From NCBI GenBank assembly GCA_026394565.1, contig JAPKYA010000119.1, forward strand, positions 1 through 40,516: DNA of 40,516 nt, given 5' to 3'. The translations under genes and the position numbers were made by a program. The notes below the pieces were generated by a model. That model was not told the origin of the DNA. It worked only from the letters and a program-made list of their open reading frames with translations, and did not search any database. Shown one piece after another: positions 15,605 to 36,593 of this stretch (the stretch's first letter is position 1; each line of letters starts with the position of its first letter). This DNA is from Methanothrix sp. Its GTDB lineage: Archaea > Halobacteriota > Methanosarcinia > Methanotrichales > Methanotrichaceae.

Positions 15605-16706
15605 CTAGTCTTTCAGTTCGTCCTCGATGCCCCGGAACTGCTCCAGCGCGGTTTCCAGGCTTTCCACGATCTCCCGCGCCAGGATTGCCGGATCTGGCAG
15701 GTTGTCGAAGTCCTCCAGGCTCTCGTCCTTGAGCCAGAAGATGTCCAGGCCGGCTTTATCCCGTCTCACCAAGCACATTGGCCTTGACGCCCTGGGCGTA
15801 GAAGACCTCCGTAGGCAGGCGCAGCAGCGTGTGAAGGTCGCAGTCCTGCAGCAGCCTTCGCCGCACAGTCTCGCCTGCTCCCCCCTCAAAGAGGACGTTA
15901 TCCGGCACCACAACCGCCGCCCGGCCATTTATCTTGAGCAGATTGCGGACGTGCTGCAGGAAGTTGAGCTGCTTGTTGGAGGTTGTGGCCCAGAAATCCT
16001 GGCGGTTGTAGGAGAGAGACTCCCGGTCGGCTTTGCCCTTTCCGTTGACGATGGTAACGCTGCTCTTCTTGCCGAAAGGCGGATTGGTGAGCACCAGATC
16101 GTAGTGATCGGCAGGATACGAGATCAAAGAGTCGCCCACCTCGATGGGGCTCTCCTCGCCGCCGATGCCATGCAGATAGAGGTTCATGGCGCACAGCCTT
16201 ACCACGCCGTCCACCACATCCTTTCCTCGCAGGGTGCGAAGCCGGAGGGATTGCTTTTGCTCTATGTCCAGATCGAATCTCTTCCGGTCGGAAAGATAGT
16301 CGTAGGCAGCGAGCAGAAAGCCGCCTGTGCCGCAGGCCGGATCGTAGATGGTCTCGCCGTTGATCAGCTCCACCAGGCGGCGCAGCTTGGCCGGGTCCTG
16401 GATCTTGCTTTGCGACTTGCGAAAGATCACTCCCAGCATGCCAGGCCCTTTGCCGAGCGTTTCGAGAATGCGACGGTATTGCTCCTCCAGCTCGGCGTCG
16501 TCTTTGGAAAGGAGGCTCTGCCAGTCCAGGTCCGGAGGGATTTTCGAAGTCTTTTTGAAGGGCGGGCGGGTCTGCTCGTCTGCCATCTTCAGGAAGAGGA
16601 GGTAGGTGAGCTGCTCCACATAGTCGCCGTATCTCACGCCGTCATCACGCAGCACGTTGCAGTAGTTCCAGAGGCGCTGGACGATGGTAGTGGAATCAGT
16701 GGACAT
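15605..16706 (-). pseudogene. hsdM: Type I restriction-modification methylase HsdM, internal deletion and frameshift
   Basis: The N-terminal 311 residues are a good HsdM: helical N-domain (YGDYVEQLTYLLFLKMADE), SAM-binding motif DPACGTGGF (122-130) and catalytic NPPF (208-211). After AQGVKANVL the frame ends in GETG and a stop at 15756. The C-terminal end is readable in another frame (RRDKAGLDIFWLKDESLED... to a stop at 15605). The roughly 90 residues normally between these two motifs are missing, so there is an out-of-frame deletion at about 15768. The C-terminal part helps dock the specificity subunit, so adenine methylation by this locus is probably lost. It lies downstream of the broken hsdS on the same strand. 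Confidence 0.85.
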
Positions 16707-17136: not shown

Positions 17137-18588
17137 TCATTGAATCAGTCTCATCTGCTTTGCACTACTATTATTCTTCCTGCTGCTCTTCGGAGCCGCT
17201 TTCGCCCTTTCCGCTCTGATGCGCTCCATGAGCACGGAGGCGGGCTCATCGCCGGGGTCCTGGGGGACGAGCCTGCCCTCGAAGGCGCGCTTGAGGATGG
17301 ACTGACGGAGGCGGTCTGCGCGTCCTTGGTTGATTTCAAGGATGGATTCAATTAAGTCAGACGCAGAGAATCTCCGTTCTATCTCAGAGACAATAATTTT
17401 TTGTTCGGTCAAAGGAGGAAAAGGGACCTTGAAGCTTCGGAGGCCTTGGAGAGATACCGTTAGCTGAGCCGTTCCAGTAGCTGCGTCTGTAGCTTGCCTA
17501 AAAGCAAAGTCTGATTTAAGAAAGTAAAATATATATTTGGTATCAACAACTTTTGAGGGTCTTATTAAACCAATATGTCTTTGAAAACAGAATTTATATT
17601 CTGTGTTGACTATCACAGGAATACCATAGGAACCTACCAGAGAATAAAGAATATCTCCCTTGATTGGTTTTCTTCTCATGGGAATTAAATCATAATACTC
17701 CTCGGGAACAAAACGCGTCTTAGCAAAATCCAACTTGCCTTCTTTTATGTTTGAGATTACGAGGAATGGTATGCCTGCCGAGGATTGAGGGGGTGCTTGA
17801 TGATCTCCATCAGTAATATCAATACAAATGTTCTTTAAAATGACAAGACGAGGCTGTCGGGAAAGTATATAACGACAGAAAGAGGTGCTGAAAATCTAGA
17901 AAATTTCAATAATATTGGGGGGAATTATGGCAAATTTGAGCAATTATGGAAAATATTTCAGATTTTTTCTGCGAAATATTAAATCAAGGGCCTGTCGATA
18001 GCGCCGGAGCTGGATCTTTGCCCTCTGCAGCGCCTCGACCCCGGCGTCCAGGCGGCTGAAAAGCTCCTCGATGCGGGCGACGATGCGACGCTGCTCGGGG
18101 AGAGGGGCGAGGAGAAGCATGATTTTTCCTAGTTTTTTTCCATTTACGTTAGGCTGGCCAATTCCCACGCTACTATTATTAATTTGATCCCAATAAAGCT
18201 GAGATTGAAAGAAATCATAGACAAATTTGGGATTAATTGATGTTGATAATTTGATCCTTATCAAATATGAAGCAAATATTGCATCAGAAGGGACATTATC
18301 TCGGATGAGATAGCTTTTGCCAACTGTGGCTCCAGTTCTGGCGAAGACTATGTCGCCTGATTGAAGTAGGTACTTTGTTTTGTCAATTTCATTTATCTCG
18401 CAGTAGGGTACGTTTTTCCATATTACGTTACTCTCTTGTATGTCCGTAATTCTAAGGAATTTCGGGCCAACTTTGGAATCACATGCTTTTGCAGTATGCC
18501 CATATTGTATCGAATTTGAAATAGCTTCTACCGGGATATGCGTCCATCCCTCAGGTAGTTCCTGCAAAATCTCTTCAGATTCCTTCAT
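17137..18588 (-). pseudogene. hsdS: Type I specificity subunit HsdS, split by a MITE and a deletion
   Basis: The first half (18588-17991) encodes target-recognition domain 1 and its helix: ELPEGWTHIPVEAIS, then LAPLPEQRRIVARIEELFSRLD and LRRYRQA. There the frame runs into a MITE copy (17850-17990) and stops at 17944. The second half reads from about 17849 to 17137 (ICIDITDGDHQAPP, FPPLTEQKIIVSEIERRFS, LRQSILKRAFEGRLVPQDP) without a start codon at the junction. The linker between central helix and second domain (EGRLT...LPEGW-type) is missing too. A single intact HsdS, with two recognition domains, would have been ~430-460 residues. Sequence specificity must be lost or changed. Confidence 0.88.
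17850..17990. mobile_element. MITE-like element, copy lacking one end, inside hsdS
   Basis: These 141 bp match the reverse complement of 989-1129 at all but one position by eye (the difference is GCTGAAAATC against GCTGAGAATC). The end at 17850 has the full GAGGCTGTCGG terminus. The opposite end stops at AAATCAAGGG, so the last 17 bp including the terminal repeat are gone, and hsdS sequence begins at once (CCTGTCGATAGCGCC). No target duplication is visible, consistent with a deletion at that junction. Confidence 0.88.
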
Positions 18589-18808: not shown

Positions 18809-19602
18809 TTACAAGCGCCTTTCATTCAACTCCGATATCAGCTTCATTCCTTTATCAGTAATCACATACCATCCTGTTTTCGGAGAGCCTGTAAACTCAA
18901 CGAGCCCATTATCCTTCAGGAATTTAATATCCCTTGTGATTGCTCGCTCCCCAACTTTGAAGCTCTCGGCAACTGGGTGACGATTAGCTGATCTCTGCCG
19001 CTCAGAATCTCAAGAATCCTCACCGCTCTTGCCTGCCGATCTCCTTTTAAACCGAACTTTATACCGAAATTTCTAGCGAAATTTTCGCTTGTCATTCTAC
19101 CGGTCTTTTTACTATTTGCAGCAGCCTTCCTGAACGTAACCGTGAAGAAGCTCGTGAATGTAAACTCCAGCGGCACCAGCCTGGCCTCGCTCATGAGCCG
19201 TTGCATCTTCCTTACACCCGTGTCCATCTTCTCGATGTAATCCGCCCGGTGAAGCATTCCTGCTATCTTCGGATTTCGCAGCACACTTTTTTTGCCGAAC
19301 TCCTCTGGCGAGAGGCCCTTGGGCAGCCCTCCCGGATTGGTGATCTCGATCCGGTCGTCGTAGACCTCAACCATGACATTGGCCCCCCGCTGGAAGTAAT
19401 CCCGGTGGGCCACAGCATTGATGATCGCCTCCCGCAGGGCATCGTAGGGAAGCTCCGGCACCTCTCGCCGCCTGGCCTCTCCCGTCATCTCGTAGCGCAC
19501 GGCGATGTACCTCTTGAGAAAGTTCATGGCCCCGTCGATGTTGAACTTGATCTTCTGGCCTTCGCCTTCTTCGAGAATATGCTGTAGCTCTTCTGCATCC
19601 AT
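18809..19602 (-). pseudogene. Schlafen/RecG-like (AlbA_2) ATPase-type regulator, deleted and frameshifted
   Basis: The N-terminus (MDAEELQHILEEGEGQKIKF) is the start of an AlbA_2 domain, but it jumps at once to NIDGAMNFLKRYIAVRYEMT. The rest of the AlbA domain (~100 residues in the family) is missing in frame. The following GHKL-like C-terminal domain is well kept (LREAIINAVAHRDYFQRGA, ITNPGGLPKGLSPEEFGKKS). Near 18990 one base is missing: the frame leaves ANRHPVAESFKVGERAITRD, which continues in another frame as a winged-helix tail to a TAA at 18809-18811. Family members are often linked to restriction or toxin loci. This copy is almost surely inactive. Confidence 0.82.
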
Positions 19603-19860: not shown

Positions 19861-21264
19861 ATGAAGGTAACAATCAAGAATCTCGGTGCTGTCCGCGAAG
19901 CAGAGATTGAGCTGAAGCCCTTGACGGTCTTCGTAGGGCCGAACAATACCGGCAAGACATGGACTGCAAATATCATTTCCGCCATCTTGGGTCCTTATGG
20001 TTGGGGGAAATACGCTAATGCTTATTCGGAAGGAAAAGTACCATTTTCTTATCCGCCCCTTGAAGATGCAGTGAAGCGAATTTTGGAAGAAGGTAATGCA
20101 AAAATAGATTTAGTAAAATTTTTCGAAGAATTTGGATCTGCTTATTTTAATAACGTAGCCCTTTTAGCTCCTCAATGGACACAGATGTTTCTCGGGACCC
20201 GCCTTGCATCTTTCAAAGAGACTGAGTTTAAAATAGCATTGCAGAATCAGGATATTGAAATCAAGGAAATTTTAGACTCCACAGTAAACTCTAAATTCTC
20301 AATTAGCAAAAAAGGCGAGGCCCTTTTAAGTGCTCTAAAAGAGTCCGGTGATACATCACTCTATTTTTTCACTGCAGGCAGTGGCATATTAGAAAAGTTT
20401 CCGGTCCGGGCAATAAAAGAATTTATTGTAAGACTGGTCTTTCAAGTGATTCACAGGGCTCTTTATAATTTCGTTTATATCTTTCCTGCGGAGCGTACAG
20501 CTTTTGCAATTCTTGCAATGTCCGCAAAGATAAATAGAAAAACCGATGCTGATGAAGTTATCAAGAATGATCCTCGTGCAGACAAAATATTCTTGGGCGA
20601 CCCGATTGTGATGCTGATGAACACGGTTACTCAAATGCGATTAATCGGAAGCCATGCAGCTCGGATAGAACAGGCAAAGAACGATAAGAGAATTGAAAAC
20701 TACCTTAAATTGGCGGAGATTTTGCAGAACGACATTCTTGAAGGCCATCTTGATTTCTCAACACCAGAACCTGACCCCTTGAGAGAAGTGGTTTTCCAGC
20801 CCAATCACGGAAAGGGGATCGATTTGGATATGCCTATTGTCTCCTCCATGGTAAAAGAGTTATCTATGTTCGTTCTCTATTTGCTGTATGAAGCTAAGCC
20901 TAACGATTTATTGGTGATTGATGAGCCAGAGATGCACCTCCACCCGGAGGCTCAGGCAAAGTTTACTGAGTTTCTTGCAATGCTCATTAATGCAGGACTT
21001 AATATTATTATCACTACACATAGTCCCTATTTGGTTGATCACCTTATCAATTTGGTGAAGGCAGCAGAACATAATGACCTGGAGACATTGAAGGAAAAGT
21101 TCTTTCTTAAAAGATCAGACGCTTTCATCCCTAAGAATAAGGTCTCAGCCTACCTTTTTGAGAAGAACACGGCCAAGAACATCATGGACGAATCCGGATT
21201 CATCGATTGGGAGACCTTTGGCGAGGTATCCGATCGGATAATGCAGCTTCGGCTGGAGCTTTAG
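19861..21264 (+). CDS. OLD/RecF-like AAA ATPase, putative defence component
   Basis: A 467-residue ABC/SMC-type ATPase starts MKVTIKNLGAVREAEIEL. It has Walker A GPNNTGKT (26-33), Walker B LLVIDEPEMHLHPEAQ (Asp354/Glu355) and the switch His387 in ITTHSPYLVDHL. The middle (~60-340) is a long helical insertion I cannot assign, and no TOPRIM domain follows, unlike OLD nucleases. Such ATPases serve as sensors in defence systems (PARIS, Septu and OLD-like families) with a separate effector. Here the only partner is the gene starting 13 bp downstream. GGAG at 19849-19852 may be the ribosome site. The sequence is more A/T-rich than the flanking cdc48 region. The ATPase class is firm; the defence role is inferred from the island. 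Confidence 0.82.
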   Translation: MKVTIKNLGAVREAEIELKPLTVFVGPNNTGKTWTANIISAILGPYGWGKYANAYSEGKVPFSYPPLEDAVKRILEEGNAKIDLVKFFEEFGSAYFNNVALLAPQWTQMFLGTRLASFKETEFKIALQNQDIEIKEILDSTVNSKFSISKKGEALLSALKESGDTSLYFFTAGSGILEKFPVRAIKEFIVRLVFQVIHRALYNFVYIFPAERTAFAILAMSAKINRKTDADEVIKNDPRADKIFLGDPIVMLMNTVTQMRLIGSHAARIEQAKNDKRIENYLKLAEILQNDILEGHLDFSTPEPDPLREVVFQPNHGKGIDLDMPIVSSMVKELSMFVLYLLYEAKPNDLLVIDEPEMHLHPEAQAKFTEFLAMLINAGLNIIITTHSPYLVDHLINLVKAAEHNDLETLKEKFFLKRSDAFIPKNKVSAYLFEKNTAKNIMDESGFIDWETFGEVSDRIMQLRLEL

Positions 21265-21277
21265 AGGGCGCCCTAAA

Positions 21278-21766
21278 ATGCTGCTCGATATCCTGAGTCC
21301 TTGCTTGATCCCTAGAACTACCTTCACCGATAATGGTATCACAGTTAACGTCAGGCCGCAAAAAGGAGAATCTGTAAAGTTCTTCGTGATAGATGAAAAA
21401 TCCAATCCAAGAAGCACTTTGCGCGAGGCACTGGGCATGCATGGACGAATCTGCGATCTAGTAGTCTACTATCTCAAAGAGGGAAATCGTGAAGATGCAC
21501 TCTGCTTCGTAGAACTAAAGGGCAAGAAAATAGATGATGCCTTAGAGCAGATACTCGAAACATTTGAAGCTCTAGAAGGATGCACTGAAAGCTCTGGGCA
21601 CACAAAGTGGAAGGCTTATATCCTGATCGGAATCGCTTCCCCTATAAAGCTGGATCCAGGAAGCATAAAAATCTTAAAAGCAAAATTCGGAGATAAGGAT
21701 ATCGGCTGGAGAATAACAAAGAAGAATGATAAAGACGACCTGGGTAGTTTTTTGCGCGGCACTTAG
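21278..21766 (+). CDS. Small protein with PD-(D/E)XK-like motif, partner of the ATPase
   Basis: The 162-residue protein has a compact alpha/beta pattern with CDLVVYYL (Asp60) followed by CFVELKG (Glu79, Lys81). This gives D-x18-E-x-K with a helix DDALEQILETFEAL after it, as in PD-(D/E)XK nuclease folds. An upstream Glu (E50 in LREALG) could complete the active site. No membrane segment is present. It starts 13 bp after the ATPase stop, so the two are co-transcribed, and it ends 25 bp from the convergent hsdR stop. A DNA- or RNA-cutting effector licensed by the ATPase is a reasonable inference; I recognise no named family. Confidence 0.7.
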   Translation: MLLDILSPCLIPRTTFTDNGITVNVRPQKGESVKFFVIDEKSNPRSTLREALGMHGRICDLVVYYLKEGNREDALCFVELKGKKIDDALEQILETFEALEGCTESSGHTKWKAYILIGIASPIKLDPGSIKILKAKFGDKDIGWRITKKNDKDDLGSFLRGT

Positions 21767-21791: not shown

Positions 21792-24539
21792 TTACCCCGC
21801 CAGCGCCTCATTCAGCTCCTCCAGCATCCCGTTAAGGCCCGGCCCGAAGAGCCTGTAAGCCTTCACCGGCCCGCCCCGCTCGTAGAAGGGTGCCAGCTCC
21901 AGGTCGTTCACCTCAACTTTCAGACTGGTGGCGATGTGCTCTTTGAGCATCTCCAGCCACTCCACCGGCTCAGGCGTGAACTTCTGCCCCGTCCGCTCCT
22001 GCACTGCCATCCAGGCTGCGAAGCGCTCGTCTACTGTCTGCGTGAACGGCTCAAGGATCTGGCTCTCTCCCAGAGCAAAGTGCACCAGAGAGATGATATT
22101 GGTGAGCAGCTTTTGCGGTCCTGCACCCTTGACCTTCGACTTCTCCAAATATTCGTATGCCCGCCAGACCAGGTCGGGCGTGAGGTGGTAGGGCGGCTTT
22201 TCAATGGCCTCTGCCAGTTGTTTGATCTCCTGGTAAGTCAGGTGCCGCTTTCCATAAGGCTTAGCGTAGATGATCTGCAGCGCCGTCAGCTCGTCTTTGT
22301 TCTCCTCGATGAAATTTTTGAAGCTATCCGTGATCCTGTGGGCCCTTTCCGTCGCCCCGGCGTCGCCGCCTGCAAAAAGCACCACGTCTTTGCTCAGCTC
22401 GTCGATGATCTGCTCATTTCTCTTCTTGATATCGATCAGCGCATTCCTGAATTTGGGATTGTCAAAAGGTAGACACGCTGCCTTGGCCAGCTCCTTGGCA
22501 GCCAACTTGAGCTGCTGCGCACTTGGCTTCTCAGTCTGGAAGATCTCCTTGGCCTTTGCCTGATGCTTGTCGGGATCGACGGCGTCAAGAAGGTCGTTCA
22601 TGATCTGCTTCATTGGCCGATCCCCTGCCGCTTTCTTGAGATCCGAGCGATCTTTCTCTCCTAGCTCTCGATCCAGCCTGGCCAGCCTCCCTGCCAGCGT
22701 TGTGAGGGTCTTCTCGCTCCGGACGCCCAGAGCCACCGACTTCACCAGCTTCTCGAAGGAAACGCTCTTCTTTTGCTCCAGCGGTCTGGTGTCGGTCTTG
22801 TCCCTCTCGCACACACCCACAGCATCCACAATCACAAAATGGGTCTTGTAGCGAGCACCCGGCGTTACGGATTCCAAATCAGTGGGTGAAATTGTCCTCG
22901 TTCCCCGTCCCTTCATCTGCTCGAAGTAGACCTGGGACTTGACATCCCTCATGAAGATCAGGCACTCCAGAGGCTTGATGTCCGTGCCCGTGGAGATCAT
23001 GTCCACAGTTACCGCAATCCTTGGATTAGGAGAGTTGCGAAAATTTGAGATGAGCGTGCTCGACTTCTCTTGAGTTCTGTAGGTTATCTTCTTGCAGAAA
23101 TCGTTCCCTTTGTTGAATTCCTCTCGCACGATCCTGACGATATCCTCGGCATGAGAATCGTCCTTGGCAAAGATGAGCGTCTTGGGAACAACGACTCTTT
23201 CCGGAAAGATCTCAGGCAGCTTCTCTTTGAAGGTCCTGATGACCGTTCTTATCTGGTCGGTGGCCACCACATTCCTGTCAAGCTGGCGGGGCGAGTACTC
23301 AAGATCCTCATCGAGCATCTCCCAGCGTTTCTCTCTGGTCAGCTTATCCCGGATATCTATGTAGTAGCCCGCCTCAACCCTGCTGCCCCGCTCGGAGATT
23401 TCTGTCATGATCCTGTAAACCTCGTACCCCACGTTAACCCCGTCGGCCACTGCTCTTTCGTGGTTGAACTCCATGACAAGATTCTGATTGAAGAAGCCGA
23501 GAGTCTGTTTGGATGGCGTGGCAGTCATTCCTACCAGGAAGGCGTCAAAGTACTCCAGCACCTGCCGCCAGAGATTGTAGATGGATCTATGACACTCATC
23601 GGTGATCACAAAATCGAAGGTCTCCACAGGAATCTCTGGATTATAGGCGATCTCCAGCGGCTGCCCTTCTATGGGCGTTACATCGAAAAGCGACTGCTCC
23701 TCGATCTCAGTGTCAAGATCCGCGTCGCCCCGGAGCATGGAGTAAAGCCTCTGGATAGTAGTAATGCAAACCCGGCACACCGGGTCCAGGGTGTTGGAGG
23801 TAAGATGCTGCACATTGTAAAGCTCGGTGAACTTTCGTCCGTCATCCGGAGTGACGTACTGCTTGAACTCAGTCAGTGCTTGCTCTCCAAGTGTTCTCCT
23901 GTCCACCAGGAAAAGCACCCGCCTGGCATTGCCGAATTTGATCAGCCGATAGATGAAGCTCACTGCAGCGAAGGTCTTACCGCTTCCGGTTGCCATCTGG
24001 ATGAGGGCTCTTGGCTTGGCCTCGGCAAAAGAATGCTCCAGGTTGGTTATGGCCTCCGATTGGCAATCTCTCAGGCTTCCTCTCGCCAGAGCGGGCAGCT
24101 CCTTGAGCCTTGCTCTCAGTGTCTCTCCCTGATTCAGCCAGTCTTTCAGGGTCTGTGGTTTGTGAAAGGCAAACACCCGGCGTGAGCGTGGTTTTGGATC
24201 TCTCAGATCCAAAAAAAAGGTCTCAGTGCCTGTGCTCTCATATCCGAAAGGAAGTGGATTATCTATGTGCGGAATTTCTTCCGAAAGGCCGGACAGGTAG
24301 CCTCCAGTCTGCTCCTCCACCCCACTCAAAGTGGTGCCTTCGGGCTTTGCTTCAATGGCTCCCACTGCCTCACGATCGATGAATAGAAGATAATCCGCAA
24401 AGCCTGATTGGAGTGGAAATTCACGAACAACGACGCCGAGAGCAGCCCCGAGGTTCAGATCATTGAAGTCCTGAATCTTCCATCCTGCCTGCGTCAGAAG
24501 TTCGTCTATCTTCTGCCGTGCAGCCTCTTCAGGCGTCAT
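21792..24539 (-). CDS. hsdR: Type I restriction endonuclease subunit HsdR
   Basis: The 915-residue protein is complete for the shorter HsdR type. The N-terminal nuclease site has Asp49 and E63-A-K65 (in AIEAKPEG). The translocase has Walker A ATGSGKT (183-189), DECH (314-317), GMTATP (~338-343) and the motif VI region MKGRGTR. The C-terminal helical region (~700-915) normally contacts the methylase. In a complete complex it pulls DNA and cuts away from the recognition site. Here its partners hsdM and hsdS are broken, so it has no visible specificity unless supplied in trans. The ATG at 24539 gives MTPEEAARQK. It shares its promoter region with the cdc48 end. Confidence 0.92.
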   Translation of the reverse strand: MTPEEAARQKIDELLTQAGWKIQDFNDLNLGAALGVVVREFPLQSGFADYLLFIDREAVGAIEAKPEGTTLSGVEEQTGGYLSGLSEEIPHIDNPLPFGYESTGTETFFLDLRDPKPRSRRVFAFHKPQTLKDWLNQGETLRARLKELPALARGSLRDCQSEAITNLEHSFAEAKPRALIQMATGSGKTFAAVSFIYRLIKFGNARRVLFLVDRRTLGEQALTEFKQYVTPDDGRKFTELYNVQHLTSNTLDPVCRVCITTIQRLYSMLRGDADLDTEIEEQSLFDVTPIEGQPLEIAYNPEIPVETFDFVITDECHRSIYNLWRQVLEYFDAFLVGMTATPSKQTLGFFNQNLVMEFNHERAVADGVNVGYEVYRIMTEISERGSRVEAGYYIDIRDKLTREKRWEMLDEDLEYSPRQLDRNVVATDQIRTVIRTFKEKLPEIFPERVVVPKTLIFAKDDSHAEDIVRIVREEFNKGNDFCKKITYRTQEKSSTLISNFRNSPNPRIAVTVDMISTGTDIKPLECLIFMRDVKSQVYFEQMKGRGTRTISPTDLESVTPGARYKTHFVIVDAVGVCERDKTDTRPLEQKKSVSFEKLVKSVALGVRSEKTLTTLAGRLARLDRELGEKDRSDLKKAAGDRPMKQIMNDLLDAVDPDKHQAKAKEIFQTEKPSAQQLKLAAKELAKAACLPFDNPKFRNALIDIKKRNEQIIDELSKDVVLFAGGDAGATERAHRITDSFKNFIEENKDELTALQIIYAKPYGKRHLTYQEIKQLAEAIEKPPYHLTPDLVWRAYEYLEKSKVKGAGPQKLLTNIISLVHFALGESQILEPFTQTVDERFAAWMAVQERTGQKFTPEPVEWLEMLKEHIATSLKVEVNDLELAPFYERGGPVKAYRLFGPGLNGMLEELNEALAG

Positions 24540-30339: not shown

Positions 30340-33300
30340 GTGAAGCTTGAATGGATACCTATATTCTTGCTGATAGTGGCTATCCTAACTCCTGGAGCTA
30401 TGGGTGCTGTATATGATCCCATTAAGGCTCTGAAAGATCCTAGTAGCGTTATTCGAGCCACTGCAGCAGAAGCGCTTGGAAAGTCCAAGGACGCCAGAGG
30501 GGTAGAACCATTGATCCAGGCTTTGGGTGATAAGAACAGTGATGTTCGAAAAAGTGCCGCTAAAGCCCTCGGCAAACTCAATGATACCAGAGCAGTAGAA
30601 CCGCTGATCCAGGCACTAAGTGATAACGAAAGTAAAGTCCGAAGATATGCTGCGATGGCTCTGGGTGTGCTCAATGATACCAGAGCAGTTGATCCATTGA
30701 TTCAGTCTTTAAAGGATGATTATATCGGAGAAGATGCTGAAGCGGCTCTTTTAAAATTTGGAAAACCGGCTGTAAGATCCTTGATTCAGGCTTCACAGGA
30801 CAATGACAGTCACATCCGATGGAGGGCAATTGAGGCTCTGGCAATAAATAATACGCTTTATAATCCATTCGACTTCTTTCAGCAATTGAGTGTGATTCTG
30901 GATATTATGAGCATCAAAGATCCTCAGCAATTGATAACTCAATTGCAGGCATTTAACAATACTGTGACGATTATCAAGGGTGGCTGTGTCAAAAGGATGA
31001 TCCAGGCTTTGCAGGACGAGGATGGCTATGTTCGAAGAAATGCGGTGGAAGCATTAGCAACCCTCAATGACACAAGGGCAGTAGAATCATTGATCCAGGC
31101 CATGGATGATAACGAGAGTCTCGTCCGAGGATATGCTGTACAGGCTCTTGGAAAGCTCAAAGATAGAAGAGCAATTGAACCACTGATACAAGCTCTGAAG
31201 GATGATGATGATGATGTGCGAATGAAGGCTGTAGAAGCTTTAGAGGAATTCAACGATACCAGAGCAGTAGATCCATTGATCCAGGCATTGGATGATAACG
31301 AAAGTGACGTCCGAGAACATGCTGTACAGGCTCTTGGAAAGCTCAAAGATAAAAGAGCAATTGAACCACTGATACAAGCTCTGGAGGATGATGACAGTTA
31401 TGTGCGAATGGAGGCTGTAGTAGCTTTAGAGGAATTCAACGATACCAGAGCAGTAGATCCATTGATCCAGGCTTTTTCCGATTACTACATACAGGATGAA
31501 GCCTTGGTTGCTCTTGAAAAAATTGGACGGCCTGCCATTGAACCTCTGATCCAGGCTCTGAAGGATAACGATAGTGCTGTGCGAAGTGGTGCTGTTGAAG
31601 CCCTGGGAAAACTCAATGACACCAGAGCAGTGGATCCATTAATCCAGGCTTTTTCCGATTACTACATACGAGATGAAGCTGTTGAAGCTCTAGGAAAAAT
31701 TGGAAGGCCTGCCATTGAACCTCTGATTCAAGCATTAAAGGATGATGATTTTCCTTCAAGGTGGAAAGTTGCGGAGGCTCTGGGAAAGCTGAGAGATGCT
31801 AGAGCTGTGGAGCCGTTGATCCTGGCTCTTAATGATGATGATTATGGAGTCCGAACGACAGCCATAGGTGCACTTGCGATTCTCAATGATACAAGAGCCG
31901 AGGATCACTTGATCTCGGCTCTCAATGACGAATACGGCACTATCCGGAAAGGTGCTGCATACGCTCTGGGAATACTTGGTGATACTAAAGCGGTAGTGCC
32001 GTTGATTCTGGCTTTGAATGACAGTGACAGCGATGTTCGGGAAAGTGCCGCAGAGGCTCTTGGACAGATTGGCGATACAAGAGCGGTTGAGCCATTGATC
32101 CTGGCCCTGAGTGATGAGTATTATGAAGTCAGAGGGAAAACTGCAGAGGCTCTTGGAAAACTCAACGATTCCAGGGCGGTCGAACCATTGGTCTTTGCCT
32201 TGAAAAATACAAGAGTAGAGGATATTATAAAGACATTTGGAGATATGGCAATAGAACCTTTTATCCGGGCCTTAAAGGACAATGATAGCGAATTTAGATG
32301 GAAAGCTGCGAAATTTCTGGTGACTACAAACGACATCAGAACGGTTGAACCGTGGATCCAGGCCTTAAATGATGAAAACTACGGGATCAAAATGAATGCT
32401 GCAGTAGCTCTAGGAAAGCTCAACGATACTAGAGCGGTAGAACCTTTGATCCATGCTTTGCAGGATAAAGAAAGCGGAGTCCGATGGGACGCCGCAGAAG
32501 CTCTAGGAAAACTCAACGATACTAGAGCTGTAGAACCCTTAATTCAAACCCTAAAGGATGAAGATGTCGGTACAAGAAGTACCGCTGCAGAAGCCTTAGG
32601 AAAGCTCAATGATTCCAGAGCGGTAGAACCATTGATCCAGGCTCTAAATGATACAGATAGTAATGTCCGAGAAGATGCAGCGTATGCTCTCGGAGAGATC
32701 GGAGATCCACAGGCAGTAGGACCATTGATCTTTACTTTAAAGCATGATGAATCCGATAATATCGAGATTATTGCCAAGCAGTCCATTGAGAAGATCAAAG
32801 ATCCTAGTGCAGTAGAACCATTGATATCGGCTCTTAATGATAAAGATAGTAATATCCGGCGGAATGCTGCGGAGGCTCTGGGAATTCTTGGTGATACGAG
32901 AGCATTAAAGCCATTGATCTTTGCTCTGGACGATAGTGATGGCGATGTTAGAGAAAATGCTGTGGAGGCTCTAGGAAGGCTCAACGATACTAAAGCAGTA
33001 CAACCATTGATCCTTGTTCTAAAGGATAATAGCAGCGTCATCAGAGGGAAAGCTATTGATGCGCTTGGCATGCTCAACGATGCGAGTGCGGTAGATGCAG
33101 TTATTCAAGCATTAAAGGATAATAGTAGCGCTGTCAGGTGGGAAGCAACAAAGGTTCTAGGCAAGCTCAGTAATATAAAGTCTCTAGAGCCATTGATAAA
33201 GACTCTAGAGGATAGCGATTACAATGTCAGAGGAGAGGTTATAGAAGCTCTAGGCCGGCTCAATGATACAAAAGCAGTACAACCGTTGATCCGGGCCCTT

Positions 33301-33867
33301 AATGATACAGAATATCATGTCCGATGGAGAGCTGCAAAGGCTTTGGGAAAAATATCCGAATCTAGAGCAGTAGAACCATTGATCAAGGCCCTTAACGATA
33401 CCGATTACCGTGTCCGATGGAATGCTGCGTCGTCTTTGGGAAAGATTAACGACTCTAGAGCAGTGGAACCATTGATCAGGTCTCTTAATGACACTGATTA
33501 TTATGTCCGATATAACGCTGCATGGGCTCTGGGTGAGATTAAAGATATGAGGGCTGTTGGTCCCCTTGTCCAAGCTCTCAATGATACAGGCAGCAGTTTC
33601 AAAGAAAGACGCGTTAGAGCTGGAGCAATATGGGCTCTAGGTGAGATCAGAGATCCCCTATCAGTTGAAGCGTTGATATCGGCTCTCAAGAATAATGAAA
33701 GCGGTATCCGAATGCTTGCCGCTGGAGCTCTTGGAGAACTTGGAGATAGGCGTGCAATAGATCCCTTGGTCCAAGTTCTTGATGATAAAGATATAAGTGT
33801 TCGGGCTAATGCTGCATGGGCTCTCAGAGAAATCAATGATACAAGAGTTAAGGATGGAGCGAAATGA
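30340..33867 (+). CDS. Exported HEAT-repeat (PBS-lyase-type) solenoid
   Basis: The GTG start at 30340 gives a signal peptide ([19 protein letters not shown]) and then roughly 35 tandem ~31-residue HEAT repeats of the kind [14 protein letters not shown]...VRxxAAEALGK. The whole 1175-residue chain is a curved helical solenoid, a protein-interaction surface probably outside the cell. Most loops carry a sequon (NDT, NDS, NES, NNT, NSS): about thirty. At DNA level a 186-bp block is duplicated (copies starting 31135 and 31321), and a second near-repeat pair starts at 31471 and 31648. Its stop overlaps the ATG of the next gene (ATGA, 33864-33867). Catalytic function is unlikely. Confidence 0.88.
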
Positions 33868-36593
33868 TCAAGTTCCCGATGGGCAGGATGCAGTTTATAT
33901 GTGTTCTGTTTTTTTCATTTTCTCTGTGTCTGACAGGTTTAGATGTAGCACATGCGAAAAACTCTATTATCATTAACGAAATATTATTTAATCCGAATGG
34001 TCCGGACTCTGGCAAGGAATGGATAGAACTCGTAAACCCCTGCAATGAGACGAAAAATGTCTCTGGATGGACGATATCAAATGAAACTGGCATAGCGATC
34101 ACTTCGCTTCCAAACTGGGATGTGCCAGGCAAAGCCTATCTTGTTGTATGCTTTGGAAATGGCACAAATGACGACAATTTTGCAGATGGATCAGGCTATT
34201 ATTATACTAACTTTTCTGAAGAAATATTCAATAATTCAGAGGACGCATGTGGATTATTCAATAACACACCGAGCAACTCATCGATGGTTGATTTCATTTT
34301 ATGGAGCTGTTGCGGACCAAGACTTAAAGTTGAAGCATACAGTTATGCGCTAAATGCAGGAGTTTGGAACGCCAGCGATTATTTCGATATAAACTGGACC
34401 AAGAATGTTGTACTTGACGGTGAATCGATAGGAAGGGATAAAAATTCGACTGATAATGATAGTGTGGCCGATTGGAGCAGTCACGGTGGCAAAGATGCTT
34501 ATTTCGCGACTCCAGGATGGCCAAATGGAGGACCTCTCTTTTCGGTGAATGACAGCATCTTTTTCACCCAAGCTCAGGCAAACTCTATTTTAATTCACTA
34601 TGGATTTAATATTACCTATTCAAATCACAGCATCATTCAAAAATATGAAACAGATAATGATCTATTCGTGAATGCAAGCCACCATTTTGTCACTTCATAT
34701 GACAATAATACTGTTCTTTTTAGCGGATTTGGTGTTTTCCACTGGGATAGAATAAATTTGAGTTACTCAATGACTAAAATAAGCTTAAATCTATTCTCAA
34801 ATTATGGAGAGCTAGTCGCCATGAATTATAGCTCAGAAGAGAAAAGATCGGATAATAATTCAAAAAATATTACTCAAAAGGTTGTTGCTGTCTACTCAGT
34901 TCAGAAGAACAATAATAGCTATCAATCTAAGACCTATACTCACATTGGATTATTAAATGCAAGCTGTAATCAAAAATATATAGTCCAACTAATAAAGGAT
35001 AATTCAATAATTAAAACAAAGAATCTTACTGAGATTGATATGATACATTCATTCAATCACACGGAAAGTTGGGTGGACGGTTCAGAATCTCAAAATATTG
35101 GAAATAATACTTCTTTTTCTATGCATTCCAACACCTATATTAATCCTGATGACATCAACGAATTTGAGTCGATTTTTGATAAGTATCTTCTCAAGGAAGA
35201 GATAGGCACAGATTATAGCTTAGCAGAAAATGGATACTTCAGAAGCAATAGGATTGCTAGTAATTTATATTGCTCCTCTTGGAGATTCTCATTAGGGAAT
35301 AACTCTGGATATCTTATTAATATTTCTGGTTTTGGCTATCATGAATATACCAATTCTAGCAAAGGATTGGATATGCTTGGAAATGTCACATATGATCTAG
35401 ATGGTGTAGAGCGTAAGACAAAACAGTATTATATTGACGGAGAATTGTGGAAATCCTATGACCGACCTACTTTTATGTCTAAGGCTACTGCAGTATCTCT
35501 TGGCCTCGAGGCCGCTGGAGAGACGCTCTCTGCGACATTTATGCTTGCAGCGGGAGAATCGGCATCCTTAGCTACAATAGGGGGCGTGGCTGCTGGAGTG
35601 GTGCTACCTGTTCTGGTTGTTGACCAAGGCTATCAACTTTTTTTTACTTTAAAAGATCATATCCCGCCTACCATTTTAGTTGAACGCACTGTAGATAAAT
35701 GGGGGGAGTTATGTTTCAGATTACACGCATATACCGGTGTGTCATACGCAGGCATAGTTAATGAAGAAGAATTATTAAAAGGAGATTGCATTGAAAATGG
35801 AAAATGCACTGATGAACCTTTTAGTAGAGCATACACAGCAACCGATGTCTTAGGCAACTCCCGCACAATATATGTTACGGGGAGAGTTGATGGAATATCT
35901 TGTGACGATAAAAATCCATGTACAACTGACTATTGTGTTCAGGGGAGCGGAGAATGCCACCATGAGGCAAAATGCAAAGAAACTTGTTATCAATCACGCG
36001 AAAGTATGAGCGATTGTATTTGTGAGGTTCCCATTAATTGTGATGCTGGCGAGTGCAGCTACGAAAAAAAGGTTAAAAGCTGTAATGATGAAGATATCTG
36101 CACAGCGGACGTGTGCAATGATGGTCAATGCAGTCACATAAGAAATGATGACTGTCCAGAGGAAGAAAAGGAATGGTGCAAGGCAAAAGAGATCTGCGGA
36201 GACGGTATCGACAACAACGGGGATCTCATGGTCGATGAAGGCTGCAATTTCGGACTATACGTGGAGGATAATTCATGCAAAGATGATATCGTTGGAGTTG
36301 AGGTCGATGGAAAAAAGCTAGGAGAGACTCCTATTGGCGGAGGACAGTACTTTGACATCAGTGATCTCAAATCAGGAGATCATACTTTGTCAATTATTGG
36401 ATATTATTCTGGAGATGAAGATTATTATTGTGGTGAAAATAACATCGTAACATATGGTGTAGAGCTAACTGGTGGACTAAAGTTTCTGATTAAGAACAGC
36501 ATGGACTTTGCCGGTGTCAGAGATAGCGGAGGGGTTCCTCCATCCGGAATAGTAAGCTACATGATTCGCGTGCCTTATGGCAAAAAACCGTAA
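33864..36593 (+). CDS. Exported lamin-tail-domain, Cys-rich surface protein
   Basis: The 909-residue protein has a signal peptide (~1-31, ending DVAHA). It then has a lamin-tail domain (LTD) at ~33-215 ([38 protein letters not shown]), a domain found in extracellular proteins of bacteria and archaea. The middle (~216-540) is asparagine-rich, beta-like and unassigned. A hydrophobic Ala/Gly-rich part (~548-590) may be a membrane segment. The C-terminus is cysteine-rich: [12 protein letters not shown] from C680, and [10 protein letters not shown] from C778, a MopE-like calcium-binding motif. There is no sortase or archaeosortase signal at the end. Sequons abound, and it is coupled by a 4-bp overlap to the HEAT-repeat gene, implying one surface complex. 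Confidence 0.8.

Follow-up and report, generated by a model that had tools for sequence, protein, structure and literature searches.

An ATPase and probable nuclease gene pair at the 3' end of hsdR

The 40,516-nt stretch of DNA analyzed here (hereafter, the window) is one contig of a draft Methanothrix genome of 2.29 Mb (124 contigs, 79% complete). Near its center lie two adjacent genes, A and B (Table 1). They fit best as a divergent branch, archaeal members included, within a class of ATPase-nuclease defense pairs that is already known, and are not a new kind of system. The ORF list of the window shows both frames to be open and the start codon of B to follow the stop codon of A after 13 bp, which confirms the coordinates, spacing, and clean frames given in an earlier reading made from the sequence alone. 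B and the hsdR gene of the window are arranged tail-to-tail, with 25 nt between their stop codons.

Table 1. Features of the window discussed in the text
Feature	Position	Strand	Description	Evidence
Gene A	19861-21264	+	OLD-type ABC ATPase, 467 aa	ORF, Pfam, PADLOC, conservation, AlphaFold2, Foldseek
Gene B	21278-21766	+	Probable PD-(D/E)XK nuclease, 162 aa	ORF, 26-row alignment, model, profile link
hsdR	21792-24539	-	Type I restriction subunit, 915 aa, full-length	Pfam ResIII, EcoEI_R_C
HATPase_c_4 ("RecG-like") gene	18916-19602	-	ATP-binding protein remnant	HATPase_c_4 (E 1.1e-21) as the single Pfam family listed
hsdS	17137-17733, 17944-18588	-	Two ORFs, one specificity domain each	Pfam Methylase_S in each
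hsdM	15756-16706	-	C-terminal part missing	Pfam HsdM_N, N6_Mtase 40-228 of 311
HEAT-repeat gene	30340-33867	+	AT-rich, 1,175 aa, overlaps the start of the next gene	Matches designed alphaRep repeats
Following gene	33864-36593	+	AT-rich, 909 aa	No match among PDB sequences

The sequence-only reading had described every left-hand neighbor of the pair (tnpA, hsdM, hsdS, and the RecG-like gene) as broken, and Pfam agrees that these genes are partial; the match of the Y1 transposase, for example, covers profile positions 4-90 of 121. The wider picture of a decaying defense island appears to apply to this left side only, because the full-length hsdR on the right looks intact, and the breaks are apparent ones in a draft assembly. 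The product of the HATPase_c_4 remnant begins in a way that we take to be the N terminus of an AlbA_2/Schlafen protein and then passes straight into the ATPase part; it is probably a Schlafen/AlbA_2-type protein that has lost most of its N-terminal domain, and it resembles a backup effector of the Schlafen type whose nuclease domain is largely deleted. With a GC content of 42-44%, the pair is AT-richer than hsdR (54%) and cdc48 (58%), as for an acquired unit. This composition is not specific to the pair, since hsdS and the two genes spanning 30340-36593 likewise favor A and T at third codon positions.

Similar placements were found in relatives. At both other Methanotrichaceae loci where B was found (L118 in genome G409 and L012 in genome G181), B ends 27 and 26 nt, respectively, from the 3' end of brxC, which is encoded on the opposite strand. 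On the other side of the pair in L118 is a frame of 1,281 codons with an NPPY motif, which we read as a putative pglX. In an Archaeoglobus locus (L015), matches to hsdS and hsdM lie close by. That such pairs always lie in defense islands is unsupported: among the matches listed (25 of 148 PADLOC and 25 of 131 Pfam families), gyrB was matched by 4 of the 79 neighbor proteins scanned in relatives, and with housekeeping neighbors of this sort, the pair is not confined to defense islands.

Gene A is an OLD-type ABC ATPase

The motifs that the earlier reading had picked out in A are present, namely Walker A (GPNNTGKT, residues 26-33), the Walker B/catalytic residues D354-E355, and the H-loop histidine H387, together with a signature-like SSMVKEL (328-334) and a short C-terminal extension after the motifs. 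Pfam assigned AAA_15 (E 2.4e-23) and AAA_21 to the protein and, as that reading had also held, no TOPRIM domain. The AlphaFold2 model (pLDDT 84.3, pTM 0.86) leaves approximately 70 residues beyond the H-loop region, which are too few for a TOPRIM domain. A therefore differs, by both Pfam and the model, from Gabija and single-gene OLD systems, which carry this domain in the ATPase protein. The Foldseek neighbors of the model included retron Eco8, PtuA, AriA, and Rad50 (best E 5.4e-7, with low TM-scores). Its Pfam families, ABC motifs, and fold identify A as an ABC ATPase of the OLD type that lacks TOPRIM.

The best PADLOC model for A was PD-T4-4_A (E 6e-59, 198 bits, residues 1-439), followed by that of the candidate system PDC-M47 (PDC-M47A, E 8e-52), whereas NsnB (4.8e-26), AriA (1e-24), PtuA (5.6e-13), Old, and GajA matched far more weakly. 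Every row of the 30-row A alignment, to which the window belongs, was matched at E ≤ 1e-20 by both PD-T4-4_A and PDC-M47A. The invariant residues of this alignment include K32, E211-R212, D354-E355-P356-E357, T385-T386, S388, and Y390, while position 387 holds a histidine in 29 rows. At least five bacterial rows (L043, L046, L073, L075, and L084) have another residue in place of G31, the Walker A glycine; four of these have a B in the B alignments.

Gene B is a probable PD-(D/E)XK nuclease

The spacing D60-x18-E79-x-K81 noted in B from the letters alone is present. Because a D-x14..25-[DE]xK pattern arose by chance in 77% of 20,000 shuffles of B (4.4% for the stricter D...ExK...Q), the motif alone was not used as evidence, and its weight comes from invariance and not from mere presence: E31, D39, D60, E79, K81, and Q91 are identical in 26/26 rows of the B alignment, window included. 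In the structural model (pLDDT 85.8, pTM 0.84), D60 lies just before a strand (61-67), E79 and K81 are at the end of a second strand (71-80), and Q91 is in a helix (85-102), an order of elements expected of PD-(D/E)XK enzymes. The Foldseek matches were weak, with a best E of 0.0095 (none below 0.001) and TM-scores ≤0.37 among the 50 matches listed. The first eight PDB matches comprised Mus81-Eme1, BsmI, an fdxN-excision controlling factor, and N.BspD6I, all of which we take to be of the PD-(D/E)XK type; ranks 9-12 were SLFN12 and Rtt109, which we do not assign to it.

Searches with B alone returned little. In PADLOC, the window B gave only a weak match to PDC-M29B (1.2e-5), a model that matched 12/26 rows of the B alignment at E ≤ 0.01. 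It matched no PD-T4-4_B model, and each of these models matched at most 2/26 rows at the same threshold. As a single sequence, B gave nothing below E 0.027 in Pfam, no match in NCBIfam or PHROGs, nothing below E 0.46 against PDB sequences, no tblastn match on plasmids, and no relative in the collection of genome contigs. Profile searches of solved structures with the B alignments gave nothing below E 0.4, and in BFVD the search by fold found nothing with an E under 0.001.

The link to known nucleases came from comparing alignments. When the 26-row B alignment was compared by hhalign with a distant set of 43 Bs taken from A-bearing loci, the two aligned with a probability of 96.3 and an E of 1.9e-9, with D60 and E79xK81 in register. 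The best single models for this distant set were a PDC-M47B model (33/43) and a PD-T4-4_B model (31/43), which matched overlapping sets of sequences. The B family thus appears, through this profile link, to be remotely homologous to PD-T4-4_B/PDC-M47B-type nucleases, and B is a probable PD-(D/E)XK nuclease.

The two genes are conserved as a pair

When genome contigs were scanned with the A alignment and the best 80 of 320 confirmed loci were retained, a B-like frame was found just downstream of A in 72 of the 76 loci with room for one (E ≤ 0.001, with profiles partly built from these loci). In three of the 72 (L025, L031, and L033), it is split over two frames. No B-like match followed A in L021, L052, L053, or L100, and four loci with less than 100 nt after A (L029, L039, L059, and L082) were left out of the count. 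A six-row seed B profile matched ORFs in 37 of the 80 loci at E ≤ 0.01, one of them (L057) being a seed contig, and all of these ORFs overlap or follow the end of A. The titles of the close set, within the best 80 of 320 loci, include Methanothrix, Methanomicrobiales, ANME-2c, Archaeoglobus, a Micrarchaeota bin, Thiotrichaceae, cyanobacteria, Chloroflexota, Desulfobacterales, and Myxococcota. Carriers of the pair thus range from methanogens and ANME archaea to cyanobacteria, Chloroflexota, and sulfur bacteria. Several of the hosts are metagenome bins, and contigs may be misplaced, above all in the Micrarchaeota bin, whose assignment is the most doubtful because its A groups with Ktedonobacteraceae.

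Within the phylum, the converse search with B alone matched 10 of 392 genomes, window included. Of the nine other matches, five have A directly upstream, one is cut by a contig end, and three weak ones (L017, L019, and L020), with no A nearby, were judged spurious. Some of these cases are incomplete: in L012, only the end of A is upstream of B; in L015 (the same contig as L057), where the contig start is nearby, the first 117 residues of A are missing; and in L018, B lies at the end of its contig and is broken into two frames. The 26-row B profile also matched 10/392 genomes; it added G154, again with A upstream, and matched G059 and G081 at E 7e-4 and 9e-4. Within Methanotrichaceae, A was found at E ≤ 1e-20 in 3/50 genomes, namely that of the window, G409 (with B downstream), and G406 (L021, without B; L105 and L120 are the same place); G181, with B and the cut A of L012, is outside these three. 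On mobile elements, A matched in 45 plasmid records, with a B-type gene beside A in all four that were fetched, and in 4 records of the phage collection, none of which covered 80% of A.

In three pairs of relatives, the dN of both genes was well below dS, which points to purifying selection on both genes in these relatives. Since the pair is conserved far outside this locus and beside different kinds of genes, the earlier view of an intact ATPase with a probable nuclease as a self-standing module holds.

Phylogenetic position of the window pair

A quick maximum-likelihood tree was built from 84 As, leaving out L033, L053, L057, L059, L082, L100, and the incomplete L012 and L015. The window A fell within an 11-row group, of which 10 rows are archaeal (SH-aLRT 89), and this group is nested in a larger one of 30 rows in which archaea and bacteria are mixed (SH-aLRT 98). 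The plasmid pairs belong to a 43-row group separate from the 30-row group of the window (SH-aLRT 99). Among them, two E. coli plasmid pairs (L101 and L103) strongly matched both PD-T4-4_A and PD-T4-4_B. The pair of Annamia (L102) matched PDC-M47. Given this split from the plasmid pairs, and an ATPase that passes the PD-T4-4 model with a nuclease that fails it, the window pair is a sister branch outside strict PD-T4-4.

Relation to known defense systems

The sequence-only reading had left the module as a type that it could not name. That no longer stands for the ATPase, which matches PD-T4-4_A strongly, and the B family is linked by profiles to the corresponding nucleases within an architecture already in print; the window nuclease itself, by contrast, matches no named system and had only the weak PDC-M29B match. 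The pair can be placed with PD-T4-4, WonAB, and the dyads of an OLD-ABC ATPase plus REase, a class reportedly described by Krishnan et al. in 2020. For the adjacent PD-(D/E)XK nuclease of this class, the motif invariant in every B row and the profile link are strong evidence in the case of the window pair, and the structural match is nonsignificant.

PD-T4-4 is described as a two-gene operon (Vassallo et al. 2022, PMC9519451), and its PD-T4-4_B is assigned to PD-(D/E)XK in a table of PMC10952713 and a figure legend of PMC12137116. The window pair resembles it in being a two-gene operon of an ATPase and a small, probable PD-(D/E)XK nuclease, with an ATPase match of nearly full length, but differs in the tree position of A, apart from L101 and L103, and in the failure of B to match any PD-T4-4_B model. 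WonAB likewise combines an OLD-type ABC ATPase with a PD-(D/E)xK nuclease (PMC12137116; also PMC12409358). According to the available text of PMC12137116, both genes are needed, and mutants of the ATPase or nuclease lose defense; upon activation, translation stops while genomic DNA stays intact, and rRNA or tRNA is put forward there as the target. The essential residues reported there (K34, R182, E300, and H333 of WonA and K71 of WonB) plausibly correspond to K32, R212, E355, H387, and K81 of the window pair, and WonA seems to be shorter between the motifs, both comparisons being by residue numbers and not by sequences.

In a 2026 survey (PMC12839542), as far as its available text goes, OLD-ABC ATPases paired with PD-(D/E)XK and other nucleases are reported as backup effectors embedded in BREX loci, the same architecture and placement as in L012 and L118. 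The survey includes archaeal BREX taxa, and the window branch may already be in its supplements, although no word beginning with "Methano" occurs in its main text; the word "archaea" is absent from the main text of PMC12137116. In the available text of the literature on PD-T4-4, WonAB, and OLD-ABC plus REase dyads, supplements aside, no archaeal member of the pair is described, which we do not take as a claim of absence from print.

Two PADLOC candidates, PDC-M47 and PDC-M29, also resemble the pair, the former through A and the latter through B. PDC-M29A was not among the best 25 of 142 PADLOC families for the window A, and for the A of L118 it scored 9e-15, far below PD-T4-4_A (3.3e-53). Neither candidate is named in the literature searched, which was mostly outside subscription journals. 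PARIS (AriAB) and Septu (PtuAB) are similar in combining an ABC ATPase of similar fold with a separate nuclease subunit, but A matches their ATPases far more weakly. The Septu nuclease PtuB is an HNH enzyme, whereas B has no HNH match in Pfam. The PARIS nuclease AriB is a TOPRIM protein according to the available text of PMC12839542, whereas B has no Toprim match in Pfam.

Proposed function and alternatives

With both frames open and the conserved residues kept, the pair is intact and probably functional. The reading that we favor with reasonable confidence is that the two genes make up an entire sensor-effector module against viruses, of the type combining an OLD-ABC ATPase with a PD-(D/E)XK nuclease (the PD-T4-4/WonAB superfamily), with a divergent nuclease branch common to archaea and several bacterial phyla, in which A licenses B and the infection aborts. 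A, as an ABC ATPase, is expected to dimerize and would bind B; it would sense an infection cue as its trigger and spend ATP on licensing the small nuclease. Once licensed, B would attack something that the infected cell cannot lose without coming to a halt; in line with the proposal made for WonB, the likeliest candidate is RNA that serves translation. This abortive division into sensor and executor is drawn by analogy with WonAB. The sequences themselves establish the family of the two genes, their conservation and pairing, their intact motifs, and their place in the genome, whereas dimerization, the binding of B by A, the antiviral role, the target, and the trigger are inferred. Since the PD-T4-4_B models match so few of the B rows, and the window B not at all, target and mechanism may differ from those of PD-T4-4 or WonAB.

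With this pair, a bacterial anti-phage architecture with experimental support extends to methanogens and ANME archaea. Furthermore, because the PD-T4-4_B models of PADLOC mostly miss this branch of B, such pairs may be under-counted.

The main competitor keeps the same two-gene family but supposes that B cuts invader DNA directly, in the manner of restriction, instead of aborting infection through RNA; we regard it as unlikely. Septu-type ATPase-nuclease pairs are restriction-like in this sense, PD-(D/E)XK enzymes mostly cut DNA, the first fold neighbors of B include the DNA nucleases Mus81-Eme1, BsmI, and N.BspD6I, and those of A include PtuA and Rad50. Against this stands WonAB, the relative known in most detail: under its action phage DNA still replicates, though with a 2.7-fold defect, and translation is halted while genomic DNA remains whole (PMC12137116).

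A toxin-antitoxin module, with B as the toxin and A as its neutralizer, kept by post-segregational killing and not for defense, would suit a compact two-gene unit with homologous pairs on plasmids. We consider it improbable, since WonB is non-toxic without WonA in the available account of that system (PMC12137116), which rules out simple neutralization for WonAB. Slightly less probable still is a remnant now without function, its intact appearance in a single draft genome being deceptive. The broken left-hand neighbors, the small share of family genomes with A, and the orphan, degenerate A in another Methanothrix genome (see below) are in its favor, but both window frames are open with conserved motifs and invariant residues kept, and the relatives have a dN well below dS. 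The least probable is an accessory DNA-repair pair of a Rad50-like ATPase and a nuclease, or an extra type I restriction subunit: Rad50 is among the fold neighbors of A and the pair lies tail-to-tail with hsdR, yet its occurrence in the family is patchy, it is on the strand opposite to the hsd genes, and its relatives adjoin brxC instead.

Returning to the sensor-effector module, its placement at the 3' ends of hsdR in the window and brxC in two relatives, at distances of 25-27 nt in three Methanotrichaceae loci, suggests a second line of defense when restriction is evaded. PrrC and RloC follow a logic in which restriction is guarded. A more specific and speculative version, which we hold to be rather doubtful, is that the pair is a guard cassette at the 3' end of an archaeal restriction or BREX gene, in which A would register evasion or inhibition of the neighboring restriction system and would unleash B on the cell's own RNA, as an archaeal counterpart of PrrC/RloC and of PARIS logic. 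If true, it would offer an archaeal example, open to testing, of immunity that is tied to restriction and sacrifices the cell, carried out by a distinct PD-(D/E)XK effector that current defense models mostly miss.

Variant and incomplete pairs

The other Methanothrix locus (L021:1672-3081) holds an orphan A with no B. Its Walker A motif reads GPNDTGKK, with the threonine lost, and its H-loop histidine is replaced by glutamine, the only such loss among the 30 rows. It is an apparent decaying half-system, and degeneration of A where B is missing fits the idea that A is useless without B, in this one instance. In Desulfobacterales, a single contig carries two copies of A (L052 and L053), and 218 nt beyond each copy begins a 147-aa ORF that contains a VELK motif; these ORFs had no profile match to B and possibly encode a different nuclease partner. 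In the distant set, the Bs of L050, L056, and L073 are approximately 290-310 aa in length, with an extra C-terminal part of approximately 110 residues past the nuclease part.
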